Part shown: positions 5,222 through 33,399 of the stretch, one piece after another
Layout: every line of letters starts with the position of its first letter
Numbering within the stretch: position 1 is the first letter of the stretch
Virus record (IMG/VR): IMGVR_UViG_3300007734_000666
Coordinates: 1 to 38,454 of that record
DNA: 38,454 nucleotides
Strand: one strand, 5' to 3'
Source: a virus
Program-made: the position numbers and the translations under genes
The notes under the pieces: generated by a model
Told to the model about the DNA's origin: nothing
Database searches by the model: none
What the model saw: only the letters and a program-made list of their open reading frames with translations

Positions 5222-6725
5222 TGGTCGGCGTCACAAACAGTTCCGCGCCCATGATGACCACCTTCACGGGGTCAGTCCCCGTTACCTCGTAGACACGATC
5301 GCGCAGCTTCTCGGTCATGCCCAAGCGCCGCCAGATGACGCGCTGGCCGTACTGACCCAGTTGGCCCATCGTGCGGCTGTGGTAGTTGCTCCAGGTGTGG
5401 CCCCCGTCATCGGACCACCGCAACAGCACCTGCGGATCGCTGCCTTGGCCCGTGGTCAGACCCACACCCGCCTCGCAGTCCAGTTGCAGCGAGTGCTGCG
5501 CGGTGCGTTTCAGAGTGTTGGTGCCGGTTGCCAGCGCACGCCAAGAGCGTAGCCATTTGTCCAGACTGCCCGATGCGGATTCCGAGGTAATCAGGTCGCC
5601 GTTCTCAAGCAGCAGAAAAGATCCGCTTTCAAGGAGCAACGCAAAGTTGGTGGCGTAGGAATCCAAATCAAAAGCGTATAGGTTGCCGCTTTGATAATCA
5701 CCAACAAGAACCAGATTGTTGAACGCCATCTGGCAGTTGGACCGATGACGCCCGAACTCCCCATTCTGGAAGCTGGCGCGTTCGTGCCACAATTGCGTGG
5801 CAACGTCGTAGCACCACGTCTTGTTGGCGCCGGGGAAGGTCAGAACGTAGAACGCATGGCCCGCCTGCTGGTAGGTGTAGCCGATCGCATCCGAGATGTC
5901 GCCGTAACTCTGGATCTCGTACTCGATGGCGTGCGTGGACACGCGGATAAAGTTGTACCCGTTGGACCGATACACCATCCCGCGCCCGCGGGCATCCGAC
6001 CCGAGCCAGTACAGCGCGTTGTCCAGCTTGGCAACCGAGTACGCCGCCTCGCAGCCCAACTCCATGAACGCGCCTTGGATACGCGCCATAGGAAAGGTCG
6101 CATTGCCGGCGTCGTACCAGACCTCAATCGAGTTGTTGCCGAACAACCAGATTTCGCGGTGGTTGACGCTCAGCGAAACGATGTCGTCCGGGTAACCTTC
6201 CGCGCTGGCAAAATCCAGCGGATCTACCGAGGTGCCGTCCAGCAGGGACGTTACCCAGAACTTCTGACTGTTGGGTTCGTTGAATACGAAGTACCCGTCC
6301 AGATAGCCGACAGTAACCGCGCCGGGGAAATCTCCGTCCGTAATCTGGGCGAAGACCAGCGTGCTGTCGTTGTAAATGTACCCATCAGGGTTGCACGCGA
6401 TGAACAACTGCGTGCCGTTGTCCACCATGCTGACCGGCCCCGTGCCGGTTACAGCACCCAGATAAGTGACCACATAGGCCGAGGTGATCTTGTACAGCCC
6501 CAAACCGGACACGGCGTAGGCGTTGCCGTTGTACTGCCACAGCCCGCGAATTGGCCCGCTGCCGACCGTTGTCTGGACCGACAGGCCGGGGCAGCGCGAC
6601 AGGAACCCGCCTTCCTTCCCTCCGCTGCCTTCCGGCACGGCTTCGGGGAACAGGTTGACCAGACGGTTGTCGGCTGCGTTGATTGACCGGGCGACATAGG
6701 CGCCGCCAAGGATGGGTGTTTTCAT
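5214..6725 (-). CDS. Packaged-DNA stabilisation / tail hub protein, P22 gp10-like (503 aa)
   Basis: Neck protein that in P22 (gp10, 472 aa) binds under the gp4 ring and closes the portal channel after packaging. Features seen: N-terminal [14 protein letters not shown] with following Gly-rich CPGL segment, the repeated beta-blade pattern ([52 protein letters not shown]) and a W-rich C-terminal third. Residues about 365-385 carry [17 protein letters not shown], an odd Leu/Glu repeat also present in the 48-residue protein at 12363-12509. Ribosome site AGGAGTATAGC precedes the ATG. It follows the gp4-like gene in transcription but is separated from it by an antisense HNH gene. Confidence 0.82.
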
Positions 6726-17828: not shown

Positions 17829-18223
17829 TACTGACCTTGCATTCTTAGCCAATCAGATTGCGTTGCCCCTACCGCATCGGGGTTGTTACCCGTGGCTCGC
17901 ATGTAATCTTCTTTCCACGCGGTGGGGTGTGTTTTGGATTTCAACATGGTTCCGTCCGGTGTTGACGAAGCCCAATGAAAACGATTTGAATCGTAGGGGT
18001 CGCGTTCTGGTCGGATACCCATTCGCCACGCTTGACGATAATCATAGTTTGCCGAGGTACTTAGGTCCGGTTCTTCGCCGTATTGTTTTACAAACTCCGA
18101 AAACCACGGCGTTGCGCGGATGCCGCGTTGAAACCGTATTTCTTCTCCTTGCGCGGCAATATTAGGATTCATCCTAGCCGCGAGGAGGTTGACCGGATCT
18201 TCGGGGGACAGATAGTTAGCCAC
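17828..18223 (-). CDS. Hypothetical protein between terminase genes (131 aa)
   Basis: Starts at GTG 18223, overlapping the end of the small terminase by 8 bases, giving MANYLSPEDPVNLLAARMNP. Aromatic and Trp-rich C-terminal half (TPWFSEFVKQYGEEP, YDYRQAWRMGIRP, FHWASSTPDGTML). Looks like a folded small domain of unknown function. An internal ATG at residue 18 is an alternative start. Position between terS and terL suggests a packaging link, unproven. Confidence 0.6.
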   Translation of the reverse strand: MANYLSPEDPVNLLAARMNPNIAAQGEEIRFQRGIRATPWFSEFVKQYGEEPDLSTSANYDYRQAWRMGIRPERDPYDSNRFHWASSTPDGTMLKSKTHPTAWKEDYMRATGNNPDAVGATQSDWLRMQGQ

Positions 18224-18611
18224 CTTGATGCTCGATGACGCGCCCTCGCGCCTGCTCAAGCGCCGTGATGACGCTGATCTTCTGATACACGTCCACGCTG
18301 ATCTCCTGCTTGGCCGTCCAGCCATGCACATGCTGGAGTATCGCCAAGCTCGCCTTGGCGTCGCCGGCCTCTGACGCCTCGTTCAGCCGCCGTGCGGCGC
18401 GCAGTTCGTTGTCCGCACGCCCCTTCTGCGCCGCCAGTTCGGCCAATGGGTCAAATTGGCACAATTGTCGGTACTCCACGGGCAGCATCCCGGACGCCAA
18501 CGCCAATGAGTCACCTTTTAACCCTAAAGATGATGCTTGGTATATGGCGTCCAGCCGCGCCTCTGTCGCTCGCACTCTTGGCCGGATAGCTAACGGTAGC
18601 GATCGGAACAT
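18216..18611 (-). CDS. terS: Terminase small subunit (131 aa)
   Basis: Recognises viral DNA for packaging and regulates TerL. N-terminal helical DNA-binding part (LDAIYQASSLGLKGDSLALA, then PVEYRQLCQFDPLAELA) followed by a helical oligomerisation region (ADNELRAARRLNEASEAGDA) and HGWTAKQEISVDV. I recognise this arrangement from small terminases of related podoviruses. First gene of the late operon; the candidate promoter places the transcript start at or next to its ATG. Confidence 0.8.
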   Translation of the reverse strand: MFRSLPLAIRPRVRATEARLDAIYQASSLGLKGDSLALASGMLPVEYRQLCQFDPLAELAAQKGRADNELRAARRLNEASEAGDAKASLAILQHVHGWTAKQEISVDVYQKISVITALEQARGRVIEHQGG

Positions 18612-18617
18612 GCCGCA

Positions 18618-18647
18618 GTTATAGCACGACCCGAAATCAGTTGTCCA
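18618..18647 (-). promoter_or_regulatory. Candidate sigma70-like late promoter, possibly leaderless
   Basis: On the minus strand TGGACA (18642-18647), 18-base spacer, TATAAC (18618-18623): each hexamer matches consensus at five of six positions. The seventh base after the -10 box is the A of the terS ATG at 18611, so the mRNA would begin on the start codon. Confidence 0.5.
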
Positions 18648-18713
18648 TAGTGCCTATTTGACCTATCCGTTACTAAGCACCGGTTAGGCTTGTAAGTTAA
18701 TGGCTTGCAAATA

Positions 18714-18728
18714 TGAAAAAATTTTTCA
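18714..18728. promoter_or_regulatory. A/T palindrome in terS upstream region
   Basis: TGAAAAA-A-TTTTTCA, a perfect 7-bp-arm palindrome and strong A-tract. Likely bent DNA or protein-binding site near the late promoter. Confidence 0.45.
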
Positions 18729-18797
18729 AATTGTTCTCGGCACCTACCCTGACCTGCACGGCCGGCTCAAGGCCCTGGCTCCCCCACCCTCCAGCTT

Positions 18798-18845
18798 TAA
18801 CCCTACCAGCAACAGGGCTATATAACCCTGCTAGCTGTAGGGCTA
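18798..18845. promoter_or_regulatory. Pair of tandem dyad sites TAACCCT-N9-AGGGCTA
   Basis: Two 23-bp sites, 18798-18820 and 18823-18845, start 25 bp apart. Both have the same outer 7-mers (TAACCCT and AGGGCTA, near-palindromic) and different 9-bp centres. This looks like a two-site operator for a dimeric DNA-binding protein. Confidence 0.55.
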
Positions 18846-18892
18846 TTGTGCTGTCGATGCCTGGCGCCAGCTGGTGCCGGGAGGCCGGGCGG

Positions 18893-18945
18893 CCGGACGG
18901 CCGGACAGCCGGACAGCCGGACAGCCGGGCCGGACAGCCGGACAG
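18893..18945. repeat. Tandem 8-bp repeat CCGGACAG
   Basis: Five exact CCGGACAG units (18901-18924 three in a row; 18930-18945 two more after a 5-base CCGGG interruption), preceded by one degenerate unit CCGGACGG. GC-rich microsatellite in otherwise mixed composition; no spacer sequences. Confidence 0.85.
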
Positions 18946-19034
18946 CCATGACATTGCATCCCGGATTGTGAAATGTCGAACCGGATACCAGGATTCTGGC
19001 GCCAGATATAAATAGTCACTTAGCTGGGCTATGG

Positions 19035-19212
19035 ATTGTCATAGTGATTGCCTAGCGAAAATCGGCGTAGATGCGTCATCTACAGGCTTCTAGGCAATAT
19101 TGTCATTTTATGCGCGGTGTCTCAGAGTTGGCGCAGCACCCGCCACAATACCTATGCCTATAAATTCAATTTTTTACTTCTTAACAATTAAAATGACAAT
19201 ATTGCCTAGAAG
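19035..19212. promoter_or_regulatory. Three composite sites including a perfect 24-bp inverted repeat
   Basis: 19087-19110 and 19189-19212 are exact reverse complements, 78 bp apart. Each is itself a near-palindrome built from half-sites ATTGTCAT and ATTGCCTA around a central AATATT. A third site at 19035-19055 holds the same two half-sites as a direct repeat (ATTGTCAT, 4 bases, ATTGCCTAG). A hairpin GTAGATG-CGT-CATCTAC lies between at 19067-19083. No flanking target duplication, so binding-site array rather than mobile element is my reading. Confidence 0.7.
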
Positions 19213-19300
19213 TCTTGCGGATCGTGTATCCGCGCGCATCTCCAAGCTTTTCCACAATAGCCAATCCAGAGCCAATCAATAGCCAAGCCATAGCCTAGAA
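19159..19300. other. Putative replication origin: AT-rich region, DnaA box, 11-bp iterons
   Basis: 19159-19205 is strongly AT-rich. TTTTCCACA at 19248-19256 fits the DnaA-box consensus TTWTNCACA. Immediately next to it are four head-to-tail 11-mers: ATAGCCAATCC (19257), AGAGCCAATCA (19268), ATAGCCAAGCC (19279), ATAGCCTAGAA (19290), all sharing AGCCWA at the same phase, one helical turn apart. DUE plus DnaA box plus iterons is the classical layout of iteron origins. Inferred from sequence only. Confidence 0.6.
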
Positions 19301-19359
19301 ATGCAAAGAAAAAGCTTGCACGCTCTCCAATAGTGTGAAACAATGCTTTTTAGCTGGTC

Positions 19360-19377
19360 CACGCGCTCGCGCGCGTG
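19360..19377. repeat. GC hairpin in 5' leader of early operon
   Basis: CACGCGC-TCGC-GCGCGTG, 25 bases before the start at 19403. It would form in the leader RNA just upstream of the ribosome site and may affect translation or mRNA stability. Confidence 0.45.
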
Positions 19378-19402
19378 CTCATACACTAAACGAGGAAAAT
19401 AC

Positions 19403-19597
19403 ATGAAAACCGCAGCCGAATTAGATTTGAAACATGCGTACACCGGGCGCATGTACTCCAAGATCGACATACATGTAAACGGCGTGTATGTCGCATCAAC
19501 GAACAGGGCGAAAACGGTTATGCAAGCGCGCTGGCAATATGCGCGCGCGAACCCCGCGCTCGTACTGTCCCAGATCAAAGGGGCGCGCGCCAAATGA
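19403..19597 (+). CDS. Small basic early protein (64 aa), unknown
   Basis: Starts MKTAAELDLKHAYTGRMYSK after a clear ribosome site (ACGAGGAAAATAC). Basic with a beta-alpha look (KIDIHVNGVYVASTNRAKTV, then MQARWQYARANPALV). First gene of the plus-strand early operon, right after the putative origin, so an origin-binding or regulatory role is possible. An in-frame upstream ATG at 19343 lacks a ribosome site. No family recognised. Confidence 0.65.
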   Translation: MKTAAELDLKHAYTGRMYSKIDIHVNGVYVASTNRAKTVMQARWQYARANPALVLSQIKGARAK

Positions 19598-20241
19598 ACG
19601 TCCATCTAACGCTCAAAAGCGCGAACGTGAAAACCGGGCCAATTCCGGTTAGCACCACCACCAAAGAATCATGCCCGCCAGATTGCGCCATGCGTAACGA
19701 ATGCTACGCATCGTCCGGCCCGCTCGCCTTGCATTGGGCGAAGGTTACCGCGGGCGAGCGTGGGACAGACTGGGATACTTTCGCGCAATTGCCCGAGGGT
19801 CAATTGTGGCGCCACAATCAGGCCGGCGATTTACCGGTCCAGAATGGCACGATCGACGCCGTCAAGCTTGGCGCGTTGGTGCATGCCAATCAAGGCAAGC
19901 GCGGATTCACCTACTCGCACCATCGCGATACGCAATCCGTCAATTGGATTAGGCATGCGAATGCCTGGGGATTTACTGTCAATCTCAGCGCGAATAACCT
20001 CGCCGATGCCGACACGCTAGCCGATCACAAAGCCGGTCCCATTGTCGTAGTACTGCCGTCCGATACCACATCTAACACGCGCACGCCGGCCGGCCGTCCG
20101 GTAGTCGTTTGTCCGGCTACGCAACGCGACGACGTATCCTGCGCGACGTGTCAGCTATGCGCGCGCCAGAGGGACGTGATCGTCGGCTTTCCCGGCCATG
20201 GCGCGCGCAAGCGCGTGATCGACATTCGGCTGGCCTCATGA
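19594..20241 (+). CDS. Cys-rich phage protein, GP88/DUF7227-like (215 aa)
   Basis: N-terminus LKSANVKTGPIPVSTTTKES leads into a Cys group (C27, C31, C37), followed by GQLWRHNQAGDLP, KRGFTYSHHRD, GFTVNLSANNLADAD and a C-terminal Cys group (C173, C183, C186, C189). I recognise this as a phage family (GP88-like, or DUF7227) of unknown function; the Cys pattern suggests a metal or Fe-S site. It overlaps the 64-residue gene by 4 bases. Biochemical role unknown; the conserved polar motifs look enzymatic. Confidence 0.65.
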   Translation: MNVHLTLKSANVKTGPIPVSTTTKESCPPDCAMRNECYASSGPLALHWAKVTAGERGTDWDTFAQLPEGQLWRHNQAGDLPVQNGTIDAVKLGALVHANQGKRGFTYSHHRDTQSVNWIRHANAWGFTVNLSANNLADADTLADHKAGPIVVVLPSDTTSNTRTPAGRPVVVCPATQRDDVSCATCQLCARQRDVIVGFPGHGARKRVIDIRLAS

Positions 20242-21492: not shown

Positions 21493-21527
21493 AAAAAAGG
21501 GGCGCCTACGGGCGCCCTTTTTTTTTT
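21493..21527. terminator. Bidirectional rho-independent terminator
   Basis: A6 run, GGGCGCC (21500-21506), TACG loop, GGCGCCC (21511-21517), T10 run. The A and T runs make it work on both strands: it ends the plus-strand early operon (last stop 21481) and the minus-strand replication operon, whose last stop lies at 21526-21528. Confidence 0.9.
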
Positions 21528-23823
21528 ACTTGACCGCGGCGAGAGTAGGCAAGCGCCCGGGCGGCGGCGCCTCGACCATCCTGCGGAGATCGGACTTGCT
21601 CAGGTGCCGCAGGTGCGGCGCGCAGAATATATGCTTCTTCGTCCCCAGGCCCACGGCGCCGAGGCGCCCGCAGTCCTGCCAGCCGGCCTCCTTCAGCGCG
21701 TGCAGCAGCGCCTGTTGCGGTATCTTGACGCCCCCCGGCGCGCCACCCGTCAGGCGATCGCAGAGGGAGTGGAACGGCGAGCCGATCACGCCGGCGGCGA
21801 ATTCGCCCGCGCCCGTGCGGAGCAGTTCGACCAAATAACTCTCGGCCATGCTCATGCCGTGCTCGATCAAGTTCAATTTGAATTCGGTCATGGCGGGGGC
21901 GGCGGCGGGGTTGAAGCGGGACACGTCCCGGCGGGCGAGCCAGCCCGTGCAAGCGGCGAACCCGCCAGCCCTGTACCAGTCCCAAAGGCGGGCGGCGGCG
22001 ACCGGGTCCATGCGGGCAGCAGCGGACCACACGGCGAACCAGCGGCGGTCCTGCGTTGCCAGGCTGATCGGCACCGGGTCGTTGCTGAACGCCAGGACGA
22101 AGCACCGGTTGACCATCAGGTAAGGCGCAAGCCCTTTGCGGTTGATCGGGAGCATCTCGGGCGGGGCGGCGATGATCGGCTTCAGCTTGTTCGCCAGGGC
22201 CCGGCGCTCGCGGGCGTCGGGTTCCTTCAGTTCGTTCAGAAGGATAATCTCGGCCTCGAGTTGGTATCCCCATTGCGAGCCTAGCGTGTCGTTGTCCAGA
22301 ATGCCGCGGTTGCGGTGGGACGGTCCGCAGACGGCCCAGAGAAGCGGCGCCCACATGGTGTCCTTGCCGCAACCCTCGTCGCCACCGTGCAGAACGGCGT
22401 GGTTGATCTTGGTATTGGGGTGCTGGTACTTGTGCGCCATCACATCGAGGATATGCTCGCGCTCGGCCACGATCGGGACCAAGGCGGCGCAATGGTCAAG
22501 CCACGGCGTCACATCCCCGGCGCCGGCGGGCTGGCGGGCGTCGCGCCAGCGGTTGCCGAACACGTCCCCGTCGCGATGGCAGAGGACGGTCTCACCCGCG
22601 GCGTAGGTGATCCCGACCAAGGCGGGGGCGCCCTTCGATTGCCGGTTCTCGTCAAAGCAGACGCTGGCCTCGACCTTGCGGTCGTTGTGGATCGACTTGC
22701 ACGACACATGCCGGTACAAGGCGTTGAAGGTCGCGCGGGACACCTCGCGGCGGTCGATCAGGTCGAAGTACGATTCGTCGTCTTGGATATAGGCGAACCG
22801 CTCGTACCAGCCGGCCTTCTCGATCCGGCCAAGCTCGCGGCGCTGCACCTCGGCGATCGTCGCGGCGGCGTCCGACTCGGGCCGGAACAGGTCGCCGGGG
22901 GTCAGCTTGGCAAGCGCAGGCTCCATGATCGCGGCGAGCAGTTCCTCGCGCAGGCCCGAGGAATGCTCGGGACCGCCCTCCTCGGCCACCCAGGCCAAGA
23001 ACGCGGCGCTGGCGAAGTCAACGCAATGCGAGTGCAGGCAGCAGTAGGACCGGGTCGCGGGCATGTAGCGGCCCTCGGGGTTGCCGTCGGTATGCTCGGC
23101 GGCGTGGGGGCAGATGACCCCGGCCCACCCTTGGGCGTTGGGGTGCGACAGCACAAGGCCACGCTCGGCGAGCCAACCGAACACGTCATCGCCTCCGTCA
23201 TCGGCAATGCGGACGGGGCGGGGACTGGCGGCGTCCGCAGGGCCGGGGGTCACGTCCAAGGCGGCGCATATCTCCTCCAAGGTGAACTCGCGCTCGGGGT
23301 GGAACTCGGTCAGGACGGCGGCGAACTCGCCCCGGCCCGGCTTGAGGTTGACCGATCCCGGCAGCCGGAAGTTACTCACCGGGTTGCAGGCGCCGGGGTC
23401 CGTGTAGCCGGCCTCCGCAATTGCGCGGATGGCGGCGGCGAACTCGCCCCGGCCCGGCTGGATCCGGAACACATAACCGTACTGGAAGTTACCCGGCGAG
23501 GTCTCGATGATCCACGTCGGGGCGAGGGACGGCACTTTGCTCTTGGTCCCCACGTCGTCCAGCACCAAGACCAGCACATACTCGCAATGGGCGGCGGCGG
23601 CGCTCGGTCGGCCGTCGGTAAAGCGGTCGATGATGAAGCTGGCGGTGTTGCCGTACCAGGCCTCGCCGGGCTTGATCTTGTGCGTGGGGAGGAACGCCGG
23701 CCAGACGCACTTGATGGCGCCGTCGGCGTGGTACTGCAGCACCTTGCCGACCGGCTTCTGCCGTACGATCAGCGCCGTCTCACCCGCCGGGGCCAGCCCG
23801 GCGAAAAACTCCAGAAAATTCAT
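21526..23823 (-). CDS. Primase-helicase, RepB-like primase plus SF3/DUF5906 helicase (765 aa)
   Basis: Residues about 80-175 resemble the RepB-type primase fold (LVLDDVGTKS, TWIIETSPGNFQYGYVF, NFRLPGSVNLKPG). Residues 238-267 hold Cys/His pairs (C238, H240, C261, C262, H264, C267), a likely zinc site. Residues about 455-640 are a superfamily 3-type helicase: Walker A GGDEGCGKDT (480-489), Walker B ILLNELKE, then NRCFVLAFSNDPVPI and DRRWFAVW. Known analogues are the primase-helicases of phage NrS-1 type. It would prime and unwind for the PolA enzyme, whose stop it overlaps by 4 bases. Confidence 0.82.
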   Translation of the reverse strand: MNFLEFFAGLAPAGETALIVRQKPVGKVLQYHADGAIKCVWPAFLPTHKIKPGEAWYGNTASFIIDRFTDGRPSAAAAHCEYVLVLVLDDVGTKSKVPSLAPTWIIETSPGNFQYGYVFRIQPGRGEFAAAIRAIAEAGYTDPGACNPVSNFRLPGSVNLKPGRGEFAAVLTEFHPEREFTLEEICAALDVTPGPADAASPRPVRIADDGGDDVFGWLAERGLVLSHPNAQGWAGVICPHAAEHTDGNPEGRYMPATRSYCCLHSHCVDFASAAFLAWVAEEGGPEHSSGLREELLAAIMEPALAKLTPGDLFRPESDAAATIAEVQRRELGRIEKAGWYERFAYIQDDESYFDLIDRREVSRATFNALYRHVSCKSIHNDRKVEASVCFDENRQSKGAPALVGITYAAGETVLCHRDGDVFGNRWRDARQPAGAGDVTPWLDHCAALVPIVAEREHILDVMAHKYQHPNTKINHAVLHGGDEGCGKDTMWAPLLWAVCGPSHRNRGILDNDTLGSQWGYQLEAEIILLNELKEPDARERRALANKLKPIIAAPPEMLPINRKGLAPYLMVNRCFVLAFSNDPVPISLATQDRRWFAVWSAAARMDPVAAARLWDWYRAGGFAACTGWLARRDVSRFNPAAAPAMTEFKLNLIEHGMSMAESYLVELLRTGAGEFAAGVIGSPFHSLCDRLTGGAPGGVKIPQQALLHALKEAGWQDCGRLGAVGLGTKKHIFCAPHLRHLSKSDLRRMVEAPPPGRLPTLAAVK

Positions 23824-26528
23824 TTACTGTATCTCCGCATGGTTTTCACATCTATGGCCAAGGGCAATCCCTCGGCCCATGCCGGCGCTTCGCACATCGC
23901 TTGCCTCATGGCAGCGGTGGCGGCGTCCGGGTCCGTTGTTTCCACGACAATTTCATCGTGAATGTGCAGCACCACGCCCTCCAGCCGGCGCAAGGCATGC
24001 CGGAGGACATCGTTCGCTGTTGCCTGTGTCACGTTCTCGACTGCTAGGCCCCGCCAAAGCCTTGCCCGCGGCCACTCCGCGGCATCGGCGGCGGGCTTCC
24101 ACGCGGCCTTGAGATAGGACACGCCGTCAGTCTCAAGGCGGGCGAACGGGTAGCACAGCACCCGGCCCGAGGGCAGCATGTACCACAGATGCTGGCCGTC
24201 GAACAGGTACGTCACCCGGCCCGCGGTGAACTCATGGCCCACGTTCCGCATGGCGCGGGTATAGGCACCCTCCAGATCTTGGCCGTGCTTCATGGCCCAC
24301 GGGTTGGCACCGCGCCACAGACGGATGGCGCGGGGGACGTTATCGATCTGCACACCGTACACCCGGCCAAAGGTGTCGAACGATCCCTCGCTACCGAGGA
24401 AACCTAACGCGAGTTCCTGAACCTTCCCGCATTGACGCTGCATGTCGGTCACGGCATCATAGGCCACGCTGAAGGTCGCCATCGCGTTGACCTTGTACGG
24501 GTCCAGCCCCGAGCGGAACACGTCAAGTTTCGCCTCGCCCGCGGGGCAGTTGGACAGCCACGGGTTGACACGGCCCTCGATCGAGGACCAGTCGGCCACC
24601 ACCAGCGCATGGCCGGGGGCGGGGATCAGCGCGGGGCGCAGCATGCCCTTGAGCACGTCGGTCACCCGGCGCCCGTAGGCGGGGACGATCTTATGCCCGC
24701 GCACCATCGCCTCGCGCACGGCCTCGGGGTCGCGTGCGGTCTTGCGGGTAAAGTTGTGGACCTGCGCTCCGTAGGAAGAATTGTGGTGCACTAATCCTTG
24801 CGCGCAGTAGCTAGCATCTCCATCAACTGTGATGTCCCAAACTCCCTTTTCTCCCACGCATACAATTTCTGCAATTTCTGCAAATGAAGTGCTTGATGCC
24901 CACTCGACGTGACTATAGCTAGGTTGTTTAAGCTGTTGTTCAGTGTATTTGAATCGATGTGATGCACTTCCCATCCCAGCGGCCACTGTGCCAGCCCAAG
25001 CGTTTCCATTAGCACCAGACGATGCTCTGGCGCGTACCGGCTTTCCTTGTGCTGCCACAAGTACCGATACCCCCGCCGCAGTATCGCGGCCACTTGCTTT
25101 CGTACTCCAAACATGGGGTTCTTCTCCCCCATCTTTGCTGCGTGATGGTTGGCCGAGCGCAGTACCTTTAGCCTGTCTTTCGGAACATCCTCCCGCAATA
25201 TCCGATATACCGTAGCCTGCGTCATCCGCGTTGTTGCAGCGATCTCGGTGCCTGGTAAATAGGGCGGGGTTGTATATAGCCGCACGACTTCCGACCGTAT
25301 AGCCGGGTCGCGTAATGCCTTCAGACTGATGCTCATGTTTTGTCCATCCAGATTGTGTAAGTAGCTGATGGTCGGCGGTGCATTCAACCCACTCACCGCT
25401 GCGGGTGGTCACGCGGTACATGGTTTCCCTGCCCTTGTAGACCTTGCCGGACACTTTACACAATCGCCCCGTATGCGTCAAAACTTTCTCGCCTATTTGC
25501 AGCAGAAAAATAGGTGCCCGGCCATGCTCTGTCTCCACTAGCGTAGTGGCTTCCACACATGCCCGCCCCGTGGCGCTGCCGCCGGCAAAGACGAACGCGC
25601 CGCGCACCCGGTCATCCTCGGTGTCAGCGAGATCCGAGAGGCGCTTGAACTTGGCAACAGACGACGCCCACAGATCGTCGGCGCATTGGATCACGTCGGC
25701 CACAGGCCCCGGCACCTCGTCGGGGTTCTCCTCGGCCAAGGCCAGCAGGTTGGCGCGGACCGACTTGTCGATGGAGTACTTCTCGCCGGTCCACATGAGC
25801 TTGACGGCCTCGGGGCCGACACGGTCCTGCACCCATTGGCGCATCTTGGGCGAGCGCACGGAGGTGACAGCACCGTCGGTCACCTCGCGCACGATCTGCT
25901 CGATCTCGATCAACTCGGCCTCGGCGTAGGTCATGGCAGCATGGCAGAGGTCGGTGTCCACCAGCACACCGCGGTCGTTGATGCGCTCGTTCACATGGTA
26001 GTCGGCGAGTTCCTCATCGGACAGCGGGCGCAGCGACTTGCTGATCTCGCGCATGGCCCTGACATCCTGCTCGCAGTAAGCGACGAATTCGGCCATCAGG
26101 GTCGGGTCGTTGTTGAAGGTGCCATCAGCGCGGGGGAGGGACAGCAAGCGGATCAGTTGCGAGCCGCGGTGGTCCTTCTTCATCTTGCTCGACACGGCGC
26201 GGCCCACGTCTTCCAAGCTGCCGGGGAGGCAGTTGGCACGCGCTTGCGCCGCAGTACAATAGAACTGTTCCAACTTTGGTTCGGGGATTCCTACGTCCGG
26301 GCATAGGACGTACCAGAATATCAACCGTTCAAACGCGGCGTTGTGCGCCATGATCTGATGGTCGCCGATCTCGGGGAAGGGCATGCCCGGTAGCCATGTC
26401 CTGACTGGCTCATCGTCAAAGGCGTAGGACATGCACAGCACCTCGGTGCTGGCATCCTGCGCGTAGTTGTACACGCCGCGACGGGGTAGGTCGCAGCGTG
26501 ATCGGGTCTCAAAATCAAGCCAGATCAC
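23820..26528 (-). CDS. Family A DNA polymerase with intein (902 aa precursor; ~642 aa spliced)
   Basis: Replicative polymerase. Residues 1-165 form a 3'-5' exonuclease: WLDFET (Asp5, Glu7), AHNAAFERLIF and YCEQDVRAM. After the intein (324-583), the polymerase domain has motif A VVADWSSIEGR (Asp646), motif B around RQCGKVQELALGFLG and motif C LHIHDEIVV (His857, Asp858). Host sequence around the intein reads ATGRA then SSYGAQVHNFTRK, matching the TGR...QNF primer-template motif. GTG start with strong AAGGAGG site. Spliced product has all catalytic residues. Confidence 0.92.
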   Translation of the reverse strand: MIWLDFETRSRCDLPRRGVYNYAQDASTEVLCMSYAFDDEPVRTWLPGMPFPEIGDHQIMAHNAAFERLIFWYVLCPDVGIPEPKLEQFYCTAAQARANCLPGSLEDVGRAVSSKMKKDHRGSQLIRLLSLPRADGTFNNDPTLMAEFVAYCEQDVRAMREISKSLRPLSDEELADYHVNERINDRGVLVDTDLCHAAMTYAEAELIEIEQIVREVTDGAVTSVRSPKMRQWVQDRVGPEAVKLMWTGEKYSIDKSVRANLLALAEENPDEVPGPVADVIQCADDLWASSVAKFKRLSDLADTEDDRVRGAFVFAGGSATGRACVEATTLVETEHGRAPIFLLQIGEKVLTHTGRLCKVSGKVYKGRETMYRVTTRSGEWVECTADHQLLTQSGWTKHEHQSEGITRPGYTVGSRAAIYNPALFTRHRDRCNNADDAGYGISDIAGGCSERQAKGTALGQPSRSKDGGEEPHVWSTKASGRDTAAGVSVLVAAQGKPVRARASSGANGNAWAGTVAAGMGSASHRFKYTEQQLKQPSYSHVEWASSTSFAEIAEIVCVGEKGVWDITVDGDASYCAQGLVHHNSSYGAQVHNFTRKTARDPEAVREAMVRGHKIVPAYGRRVTDVLKGMLRPALIPAPGHALVVADWSSIEGRVNPWLSNCPAGEAKLDVFRSGLDPYKVNAMATFSVAYDAVTDMQRQCGKVQELALGFLGSEGSFDTFGRVYGVQIDNVPRAIRLWRGANPWAMKHGQDLEGAYTRAMRNVGHEFTAGRVTYLFDGQHLWYMLPSGRVLCYPFARLETDGVSYLKAAWKPAADAAEWPRARLWRGLAVENVTQATANDVLRHALRRLEGVVLHIHDEIVVETTDPDAATAAMRQAMCEAPAWAEGLPLAIDVKTMRRYSK
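24780..25559 (-). other. Intein in DNA polymerase (260 aa, Cys324-Asn583)
   Basis: Protein-splicing element. Block A CVEATTLVETEHGRAPIF with Cys1; block B ECTADHQLLT (T-x-x-H); block F GVWDITVDGDASYCAQGL; block G VHHN with penultimate His and terminal Asn; the +1 residue is Ser584. All class 1 splicing residues are present. The region between block B and block F (about residues 405-545) has no intein endonuclease motif and looks like a translated shadow. A free HNH gene occupies this DNA in another frame. Confidence 0.93.
24791..25336 (-). CDS. HNH homing endonuclease nested out of frame inside the intein (181 aa)
   Basis: Same strand as the polymerase but in a different frame. Starts MSISLKALRDPAIRSEVVRL; helix-turn-helix about 15-48 (EIAATTRMTQATVYRILRED); NUMOD3-like ANHHAAKMGEKNPMFG (62-77); HNH core 104-151 with EHRLVLMETLG, GWEVHHIDSN, NNLAIVTSSGHQALH (H125, H126, N138, H147). 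The ATG at 25336 has a weak GGATGG site; an in-frame GTG at 25396 is possible. Its stop TAG (24791-24793) lies within the codons for the intein's last residues. A complete gene with all HNH residues. Confidence 0.88.
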   Translation of the reverse strand: MSISLKALRDPAIRSEVVRLYTTPPYLPGTEIAATTRMTQATVYRILREDVPKDRLKVLRSANHHAAKMGEKNPMFGVRKQVAAILRRGYRYLWQHKESRYAPEHRLVLMETLGLAQWPLGWEVHHIDSNTLNNSLNNLAIVTSSGHQALHLQKLQKLYAWEKREFGTSQLMEMLATARKD

Positions 26529-30473: not shown

Positions 30474-30628
30474 AGTTGGACTTGTTGAAAGCGAAGTTGA
30501 AGGCGGCGAAAGCCGAGCGGATCATCCGGCGAAGGCAGTACAACGCCGCCGAGCGCGGACTGTTCAAGGTCTGCACCCTTGTTGACCAACTGGAGAAGCA
30601 AATTGAAGCTCACCTGGCGCGAGCTTAA
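30470..30628 (+). CDS. Small basic helical protein (52 aa)
   Basis: MKLDLLKAKLKAAKAERIIR, then RRQYNAAERGLFKV and a coiled-coil-like QLEKQIEAHLARA. ATG overlaps the helicase stop (ATGA). No family recognised. Confidence 0.6.
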   Translation: MKLDLLKAKLKAAKAERIIRRRQYNAAERGLFKVCTLVDQLEKQIEAHLARA

Positions 30629-30791
30629 CCGCGTCTTGGTCTCCAAGACCGAGGCCGAGGTGCTGGGCATGCTTGAGCGTGAGGTGGCTACCGAGCGCCG
30701 TGTGGTGGTGCTTGAGCGTCTGCACCAGCGGTACAACGTGCTGCGCGTGTCGCGTGAGCGCATCGAACTGTTACGGGAGGCAAAGAAATGA
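30603..30791 (+). CDS. Small charged helical protein (62 aa), TTG start
   Basis: Starts at TTG 30603 preceded by GGAGAAG at good distance, inside the end of the 52-residue gene; gives MKLTWRELNRVLVSKTEAEV then LEREVATERRVVVLERLHQR. Mostly helix. No family recognised; an in-frame TTG at 30579 is less well placed. Confidence 0.55.
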   Translation: MKLTWRELNRVLVSKTEAEVLGMLEREVATERRVVVLERLHQRYNVLRVSRERIELLREAKK

Positions 30792-33194: not shown

Positions 33195-33399
33195 TTTGAT
33201 TCACTTGTATCCCCGCTAACAAACCAATAAACCCGCCCACGATGGTCTGAAACGCCGGGGCAATTAGTTTGAATATGTCGGCGTTATCCACAAGCGGATC
33301 AAATAACCCGAAGCACATCACCATAACCATTGATAGAAGGATTACACAGAGCGTAATGCTCACCATCATGACTACAAAGAATAGAGTTTTTTCTTTCAC
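33181..33399 (-). CDS. Small membrane protein with two TM helices, holin-like (72 aa)
   Basis: TM1 FFVVMMVSITLCVILLSMVM, TM2 FQTIVGGFIGLLAGI, polar tail QVNQNEPK. Two-helix class II holin layout. GTG start overlaps the 56-residue gene by 4 bases. Holin or antiholin by position next to endolysin. Confidence 0.6.
   Translation of the reverse strand: MKEKTLFFVVMMVSITLCVILLSMVMVMCFGLFDPLVDNADIFKLIAPAFQTIVGGFIGLLAGIQVNQNEPK

Follow-up and report, generated by a model that had tools for sequence, protein, structure and literature searches.

Does the cluster of short direct repeats lying ahead of the early genes of a podovirus-like phage mark its origin of replication, and which protein would read it? 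The question arises in IMG/VR virus record IMGVR_UViG_3300007734_000666, a 38,454-bp virus genome analyzed over its whole length (hereafter the window), in which an earlier note had proposed an origin composed of a DnaA box and four 11-bp iterons at helical spacing, possibly bound by the 64-residue first early protein. In this genome, a control region (18612–19402) separates a leftward block of podovirus-like late genes (a TerS-like open reading frame [ORF], TerL, portal, scaffold, and capsid) from rightward early genes beginning at 19403. Judging from sequence comparison, we lean cautiously toward 19025–19300 being the replication origin of this phage, with the reported repeats as its promoter-proximal site cluster, because the array and an adjoining inverted repeat both exceed chance expectation, a convergent core recurs in relatives, the gap within it is unstable, and the control region is where the sites cluster. 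Placing an origin here is the best reading of the locus, although the reasons originally given for it (the DnaA box, the helical spacing, and the 64-residue binder) did not hold. The elements of the array and its surroundings are the following.

18644–18670, no strand assigned: TerS-proximal 9-bp triple, TCCATAGTG CCTATTTGA CCTATCCGT (loose)
19025–19042, plus strand: further right-facing pair, TGGGCTATG/GATTGTCAT
19048–19056, minus strand: single left-facing site, TTGCCTAGC
19084–19110, plus strand: left arm of the inverted repeat, with the right-facing nonamer pair TCTAGGCAA/TATTGTCAT at 19089–19106 (Box 3)
19107–19192, no strand assigned: 86-nt gap between the convergent pairs, its right half AT-rich
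19189–19215, minus strand: right arm of the inverted repeat, with the left-facing pair ATGACAATA/TTGCCTAGA at 19193–19210 (Box 4)
19248–19256, plus strand: DnaA-box-like word TTTTCCACA, directly abutting the array and judged a chance match
19256–19300, minus strand: the reported iterons, four units repeated in tandem every 11 bp, forming the promoter-proximal box (Box 6)
19316–19344, plus strand: possible early promoter TTGCAC-17-AACAAT, assigned by position, weak

The letters and coordinates given for the four 11-bp iterons proved correct, with the units ATAGCCAATCC, AGAGCCAATCA, ATAGCCAAGCC, and ATAGCCTAGAA occupying 19257–19300 and the first early ATG (19403) lying 103 bp beyond them, as had been noted. 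Period-11 identity within the array holds at 26 of 33 positions, a level reached by none of 500 dinucleotide shuffles of 18961–19402; elsewhere in the window no 400-bp stretch scored above 18 at this period, and the array is listed by Tandem Repeats Finder as well. Within a larger site array, these iterons form the promoter-proximal box. The adjoining inverted repeat, absent from the earlier note, is a stronger feature: its 27-nt arms are 96% complementary with 78 nt between them, and the exact arm of 24 bp was reached in 0 of 500 shuffles. This inverted repeat is the convergent core of the window, in which the pair of Box 3 faces that of Box 4.

To place the array among relatives, the DUF7227 protein encoded just inside the early block served as a query against IMG/VR, matching at least 599 stretches, of which the best 80 were kept. 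Fifty-nine loci, together with the window, contain TerS and DUF7227 flanking a control region, and dropping eight near-duplicates left 52 control regions. Most of them carry a phage-specific 9-mer in ∼5 to 18 copies, usually at 9-bp spacing and in both orientations. The site classes, written toward the gap, include TTTGGGTCA, ATGTGGACA, ATGTAGGCA, AATGGGTCA, and TGTGTGTCA, with ATGTTGGCA, TGTGGGGTA, TTGTAGTCA, and AAATTGTCA as further ones; these motifs, like those of the strict scan described below, were grown from seeds chosen by eye in the DNA and are hence fitted. In 10 of the 52 regions the most repeated word differs from such a 9-mer, consisting of GC-rich repeats in L004, L005, and L009 and of a palindromic AAGTTAGTG-type motif in L014, L026, L027, L029, L057, L059, and L063. 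Toward TerS in these last seven regions, AAGTTAGTG is paired with CACTAACTT as inverted copies, which may be the sites of another regulator.

The 16 class A regions share one common element order: a right-facing triple, a right-facing pair with a nearby left-facing pair, and then another right-facing pair, which an AT-rich tract separates from a left-facing pair; beyond these come a single site and one more left-facing pair immediately ahead of TTGACA-17-TTACAAT, which stands at the place of the possible early promoter of the window. Phage-specific 9-bp sites set head to tail in pairs are present in most of 57 related control regions. A strict scan, covering 54 of the 57 (L004, L005, and L011 being left out), recovered convergent pairs around an AT-rich gap in 33 of the 54, compared with 0 of 540 shuffles; the least stable or nearly least stable 60 bp of the control region fell inside the gap in 31 of these 33. 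By inspection the core was recognized in nine more of the 57, namely the window, L011, L046, L056, L075, L082, L026 (inspected as the same contig under the label L135), L027, and L059. In its core, the window almost matches the DNA of class C phages that have a TerS ∼64% identical to its own; in L056, for instance, the arms are TGTAGGCAATGTTGTCAT and ATGACAATATTGCCCACA, the left one near-identical to that of the window, and many class C loci agree.

Concerning the promoter-proximal box, Box 6 units are oriented like the ATGACCCAA-type units of relatives. The check on iteron conservation proposed in the earlier note gave a divided answer, the letters being variable and the kind of repeat, its orientation, and its position conserved. 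Helical 11-bp spacing does not hold as a rule: relatives mostly use 9 bp, their promoter-proximal box being a 9-bp pair in most cases, whereas 10–11-bp spacing occurs only in some promoter-proximal boxes (the window, L034 with three units, L032, and MW202483). MW202483 carries 11-bp units ACTACCAATCC before the promoter, closely resembling those of the window, plus a right-facing pair. At the TerS-proximal end, L004–L006 have TTTGGCCTATTTGGCCTAT at the place of the triple of the window.

The control region of the window gave no match in a search against phages, an exact 21-mer of the inverted repeat gave 0 matches, and an iteron-pattern search gave two, neither accompanied by group genes in the scan. 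A 16-base core pattern matched at least 119 stretches; among the 121 loci formed by these and the two iteron-pattern matches, 28 had a group gene (weak or chance-like in L146, L150, L187, L202, and L215), and most of the 16-base core matches are probably due to chance. Within genomes, the sites concentrate in the control region, which holds all 10 exact sites in G001 and five of eight in the window (one mismatch allowed).

The gap (scored as 90 nt) has an AT fraction of 0.62, compared with 0.48 for the region, and stability in the control region of the window is lowest over the 80 bp at 19144–19223, which span the gap's right half together with the right arm and rank as the second least stable non-overlapping 80-bp stretch of the genome. 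The corresponding 80-bp minimum of each control region ranks first or second genome-wide in seven of nine genomes, third in OR003940, and seventh in G007 (there at the TerS edge), these ranks referring to the whole control region and not to the gap specifically. The likely melting site is the gap (19107–19192) plus the right arm, between the convergent pairs. As for GC skew, the window minimum at 20099 is indeed near the site, as the origin proposal had anticipated, but relatives do not consistently agree: a skew extreme falls within ∼2.5 kb of the control region in six of nine genomes, the others being G001, G007, and W01.

The genes from which a reader of the sites could be drawn are listed below.

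18216–18611, minus strand: TerS-like ORF, opening the leftward late block; its positional counterpart in OR003940 is annotated as terminase small subunit
19403–19597, plus strand: 64-residue first early protein, earlier proposed as binder (unsupported)
19594–20241, plus strand: DUF7227 protein, the anchor for finding relatives
21526–23823, minus strand: DUF5906/superfamily 3 (SF3) primase-helicase, candidate initiator
21571–21774, minus strand: predicted winged helix, codons 684–751 of the primase-helicase, with the wing at about residues 722–729

The primase-helicase, which matches DUF5906 in Pfam and the NrS-1 primase, is the likeliest candidate for site reader and initiator. Its predicted-fold matches comprise NrS-1, poxvirus D5/E5, and SaPI5 PriRep1, and the winged-helix blocks were modeled with a predicted local distance difference test (pLDDT) score of ∼76–89. 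All eight class B sequences seen have K-S-R-x-x-D/E in the wing, and among close pairs residues 716–755 track sameness of the motif most strongly (9 of 500 permutations, in an analysis made once the pattern was already known). That the wing reads the sites is only suggested by these observations. A pair of closely related loci, L042 and L069, bears on the other proteins: TerS is identical between them, TerL 99.4% and DUF7227 97% identical, but the sites differ, so these three proteins are poor reader candidates, and TerS was rejected in this role. The flanking DNA of the two loci is nearly identical as well (95.5% on the left, 90% on the right), the control region apparently having been exchanged in a natural swap of site specificity. 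The 64-residue protein is unlikely to be the binder, as it found one relative in viral contigs (L004), where it is not the first early gene, and no family match in scans, and the array architecture is shared by many phages where it did not turn up. Phage DnaA domain IV was also rejected as a general reader, exceeding the cut-off in one of 14 records. A free-standing DnaA domain IV protein is encoded at 5924–6220 of L085 (MW202483; Pfam Bac_DnaA_C, E 1.1e-17), the single relative among these records to have one.

In the mechanism we propose, the SF3 primase-helicase would use the wing of its C-terminal winged helix to bind the sites, load on the convergent pairs as two oppositely facing assemblies, melt the AT-rich gap, and prime in both directions, while binding at the promoter-proximal array would also couple early transcription to the level of initiator. 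More tentatively, the nonamer code may diversify rapidly between phages and be read by a changing primase-helicase wing, such that relatives and satellites could not share origins. Several observations weigh against the origin reading and its proposed mechanism. Fifteen of the 57 regions have no visible convergent core (L004, L005, L007, L009, L021, L025, L029, L035, L052, L057, L063, L067, L068, W01 [MW202483], and W02 [OR003940]), and L004 and L005, which lack a clear one, are among the closest TerS relatives of the window examined. GC-skew extremes mark the site inconsistently, and skew is confounded by the divergent genes. The model of the whole primase-helicase is weak (pLDDT 66.9, predicted template modeling score 0.37). 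The first covariation analysis, which took all pairs, fell short of significance: the observed value was reached in 24 of 400 permutations, with a peak at residues 664–675. Since the control proteins TerS, DUF7227, and TerL also beat permutations, with smaller coefficients (0.064–0.088 versus 0.129), shared ancestry may explain the covariation. Finally, L047 has class A sites but an unusual primase-helicase C-terminus, and L025 and L022 share wing letters yet differ in site consensus.

The main rival, which we consider unlikely without dismissing it, holds that the sites are operators of a phage regulator switching between rightward early and leftward late transcription, the gap being promoter DNA where no replication starts. 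Contiguous short repeats fit multimeric repressors, the region lies between divergent gene blocks with boxes near TerS and just before the position of the early promoter, and in OR003940 a site sits between −35-like and −10-like hexamers. Against this, the commonest feature, convergent pairs with an unstable gap, lies away from both gene starts, and no conserved repressor gene was found among the scanned window proteins, which did not include every small ORF. A combined role, in which the same initiator sites serve as origin and operator, with 9-bp core pairs serving for melting and the 10–11-bp promoter-proximal array controlling transcription, is favored by the difference between the two spacings; resting on the four examples named above, it strikes us as improbable in this specific form.

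That the sites form a pac or cos signal, read by TerS for packaging, is very doubtful: they do adjoin terS, and of the large contigs considered (11, counting the window and ten relatives >30 kb) three stop no more than 340 bp upstream of DUF7227, but the sites of L042 and L069 differ despite their identical TerS, and the helix-turn-helix letters of TerS are nearly constant across site classes. The ends of these three contigs (L015, L037, and L066) suggest that a break, physical or introduced by assembly, falls at the control region. Least credible of all is the host DnaA-dependent origin first proposed. The abutting word TTTTCCACA is one mismatch from TTATCCACA, and class B nonamers (TTGTCCACA) are one base from it, but the other site classes bear little resemblance to a DnaA box; TTWTNCACA, present three times in the window, occurs in eight of 52 related control regions versus 6.3 (standard deviation 2.4) in shuffles, which is chance level, and the box is not conserved. 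An exact TTATCCACA was observed at 33284–33292, on the late-gene side of the genome.

Taken together, the locus is best read as a satellite-type origin, similar to those of phage-inducible chromosomal islands (PICIs) and P4, in a complete phage, and perhaps as an operator as well. The likeness to PICI origins (Staphylococcus aureus pathogenicity islands [SaPIs] and Escherichia coli chromosomal islands [EcCIs]) is drawn because both place two iteron sets around an AT-rich region, the published layout there and the arrangement of the core of the window here. Both also encode an SF3-type primase-helicase, the Rep/Pri-Rep helicases including the SaPI5 fold match mentioned above, and, as in PICI/SaPI-type elements, iterons differ by element, the nonamer classes varying between phages. 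SaPI Rep is reported to recognize iterons via its C-terminal domain (PMC7581432). We do not class the locus as a PICI origin, because position and carrier differ, though the workings would be alike. PICI origins lie immediately 3′ of the rep gene, whereas here ∼2.2 kb with early genes separate the origin from the 3′ end of the primase-helicase gene; PICIs are satellites needing a helper phage, whereas the window encodes portal, capsid, TerL, and polymerase; and the sites here are nonamer pairs plus a further array before the early promoter, at the early/late divergence. P4 alpha is a primase-helicase that binds origin repeats with a winged helix (PMC4234260), as is proposed for the protein of the window, but the same source describes a Toprim primase, whereas the protein of the window is DUF5906/NrS-1-like and gave no Toprim match in Pfam at E 0.001. 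The lambda origin, with four 19-bp repeats bound by lambda O (PMC3985674), resembles the locus in using iterons as initiator sites and differs from its 9–11-bp units and convergent core; no lambda O-like protein was found among the scanned window proteins. A relative, phage DSL-LC05 (OR003940, proposed "Luchaoviridae"), has the same TerS/control/DUF7227 order and TGGGTCA-type repeats; in the available text of its paper (PMC10611076) the word "repeat" occurs 0 times and the array goes unmentioned. Among titles and abstract openings, with subscription papers mostly outside reach, no paper describing such an array in phages was found.

Other features of the window were recorded along the way. A consensus scan found no sigma-70 site at the possible early promoter. 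Between TerS and the site array, 18884–18947 consists of GC-rich 8-bp tandem repeats (GCCGGACA), and other GC-rich tandem repeats occupy the equivalent place in relatives (GCCGGTCA in L009, GGCA in L004). A stretch of the type AAAATTGTTCG...GGCCC..CCCCC at ∼18714–18790, 60–130 bp upstream of the TerS start, was seen again in the relatives inspected and may act as a late promoter or in packaging. An apparent intein-like insert occupies residues 365–583 of the family A DNA polymerase (23820–26528, minus strand), matching Pfam PF14890 at E 3e-7 (30.8 bits, under the 35.8 cut-off). A basic protein of ∼65 residues (30579–30791, plus strand), encoded after an SNF2 helicase and lacking an NCBIfam match, has matches in nine of 12 related genomes compared.

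If the origin reading is true, a large group of uncultured aquatic phages would gain an origin and an initiator that can be tested, and the satellite-type layout would extend to phages with complete genomes. With dozens of natural site variants matched to dozens of helicase variants, the rules of DNA recognition by SF3 primase-helicases could then be derived, and it would become apparent whether origins diverge in specificity as an escape from satellites or competing phages.
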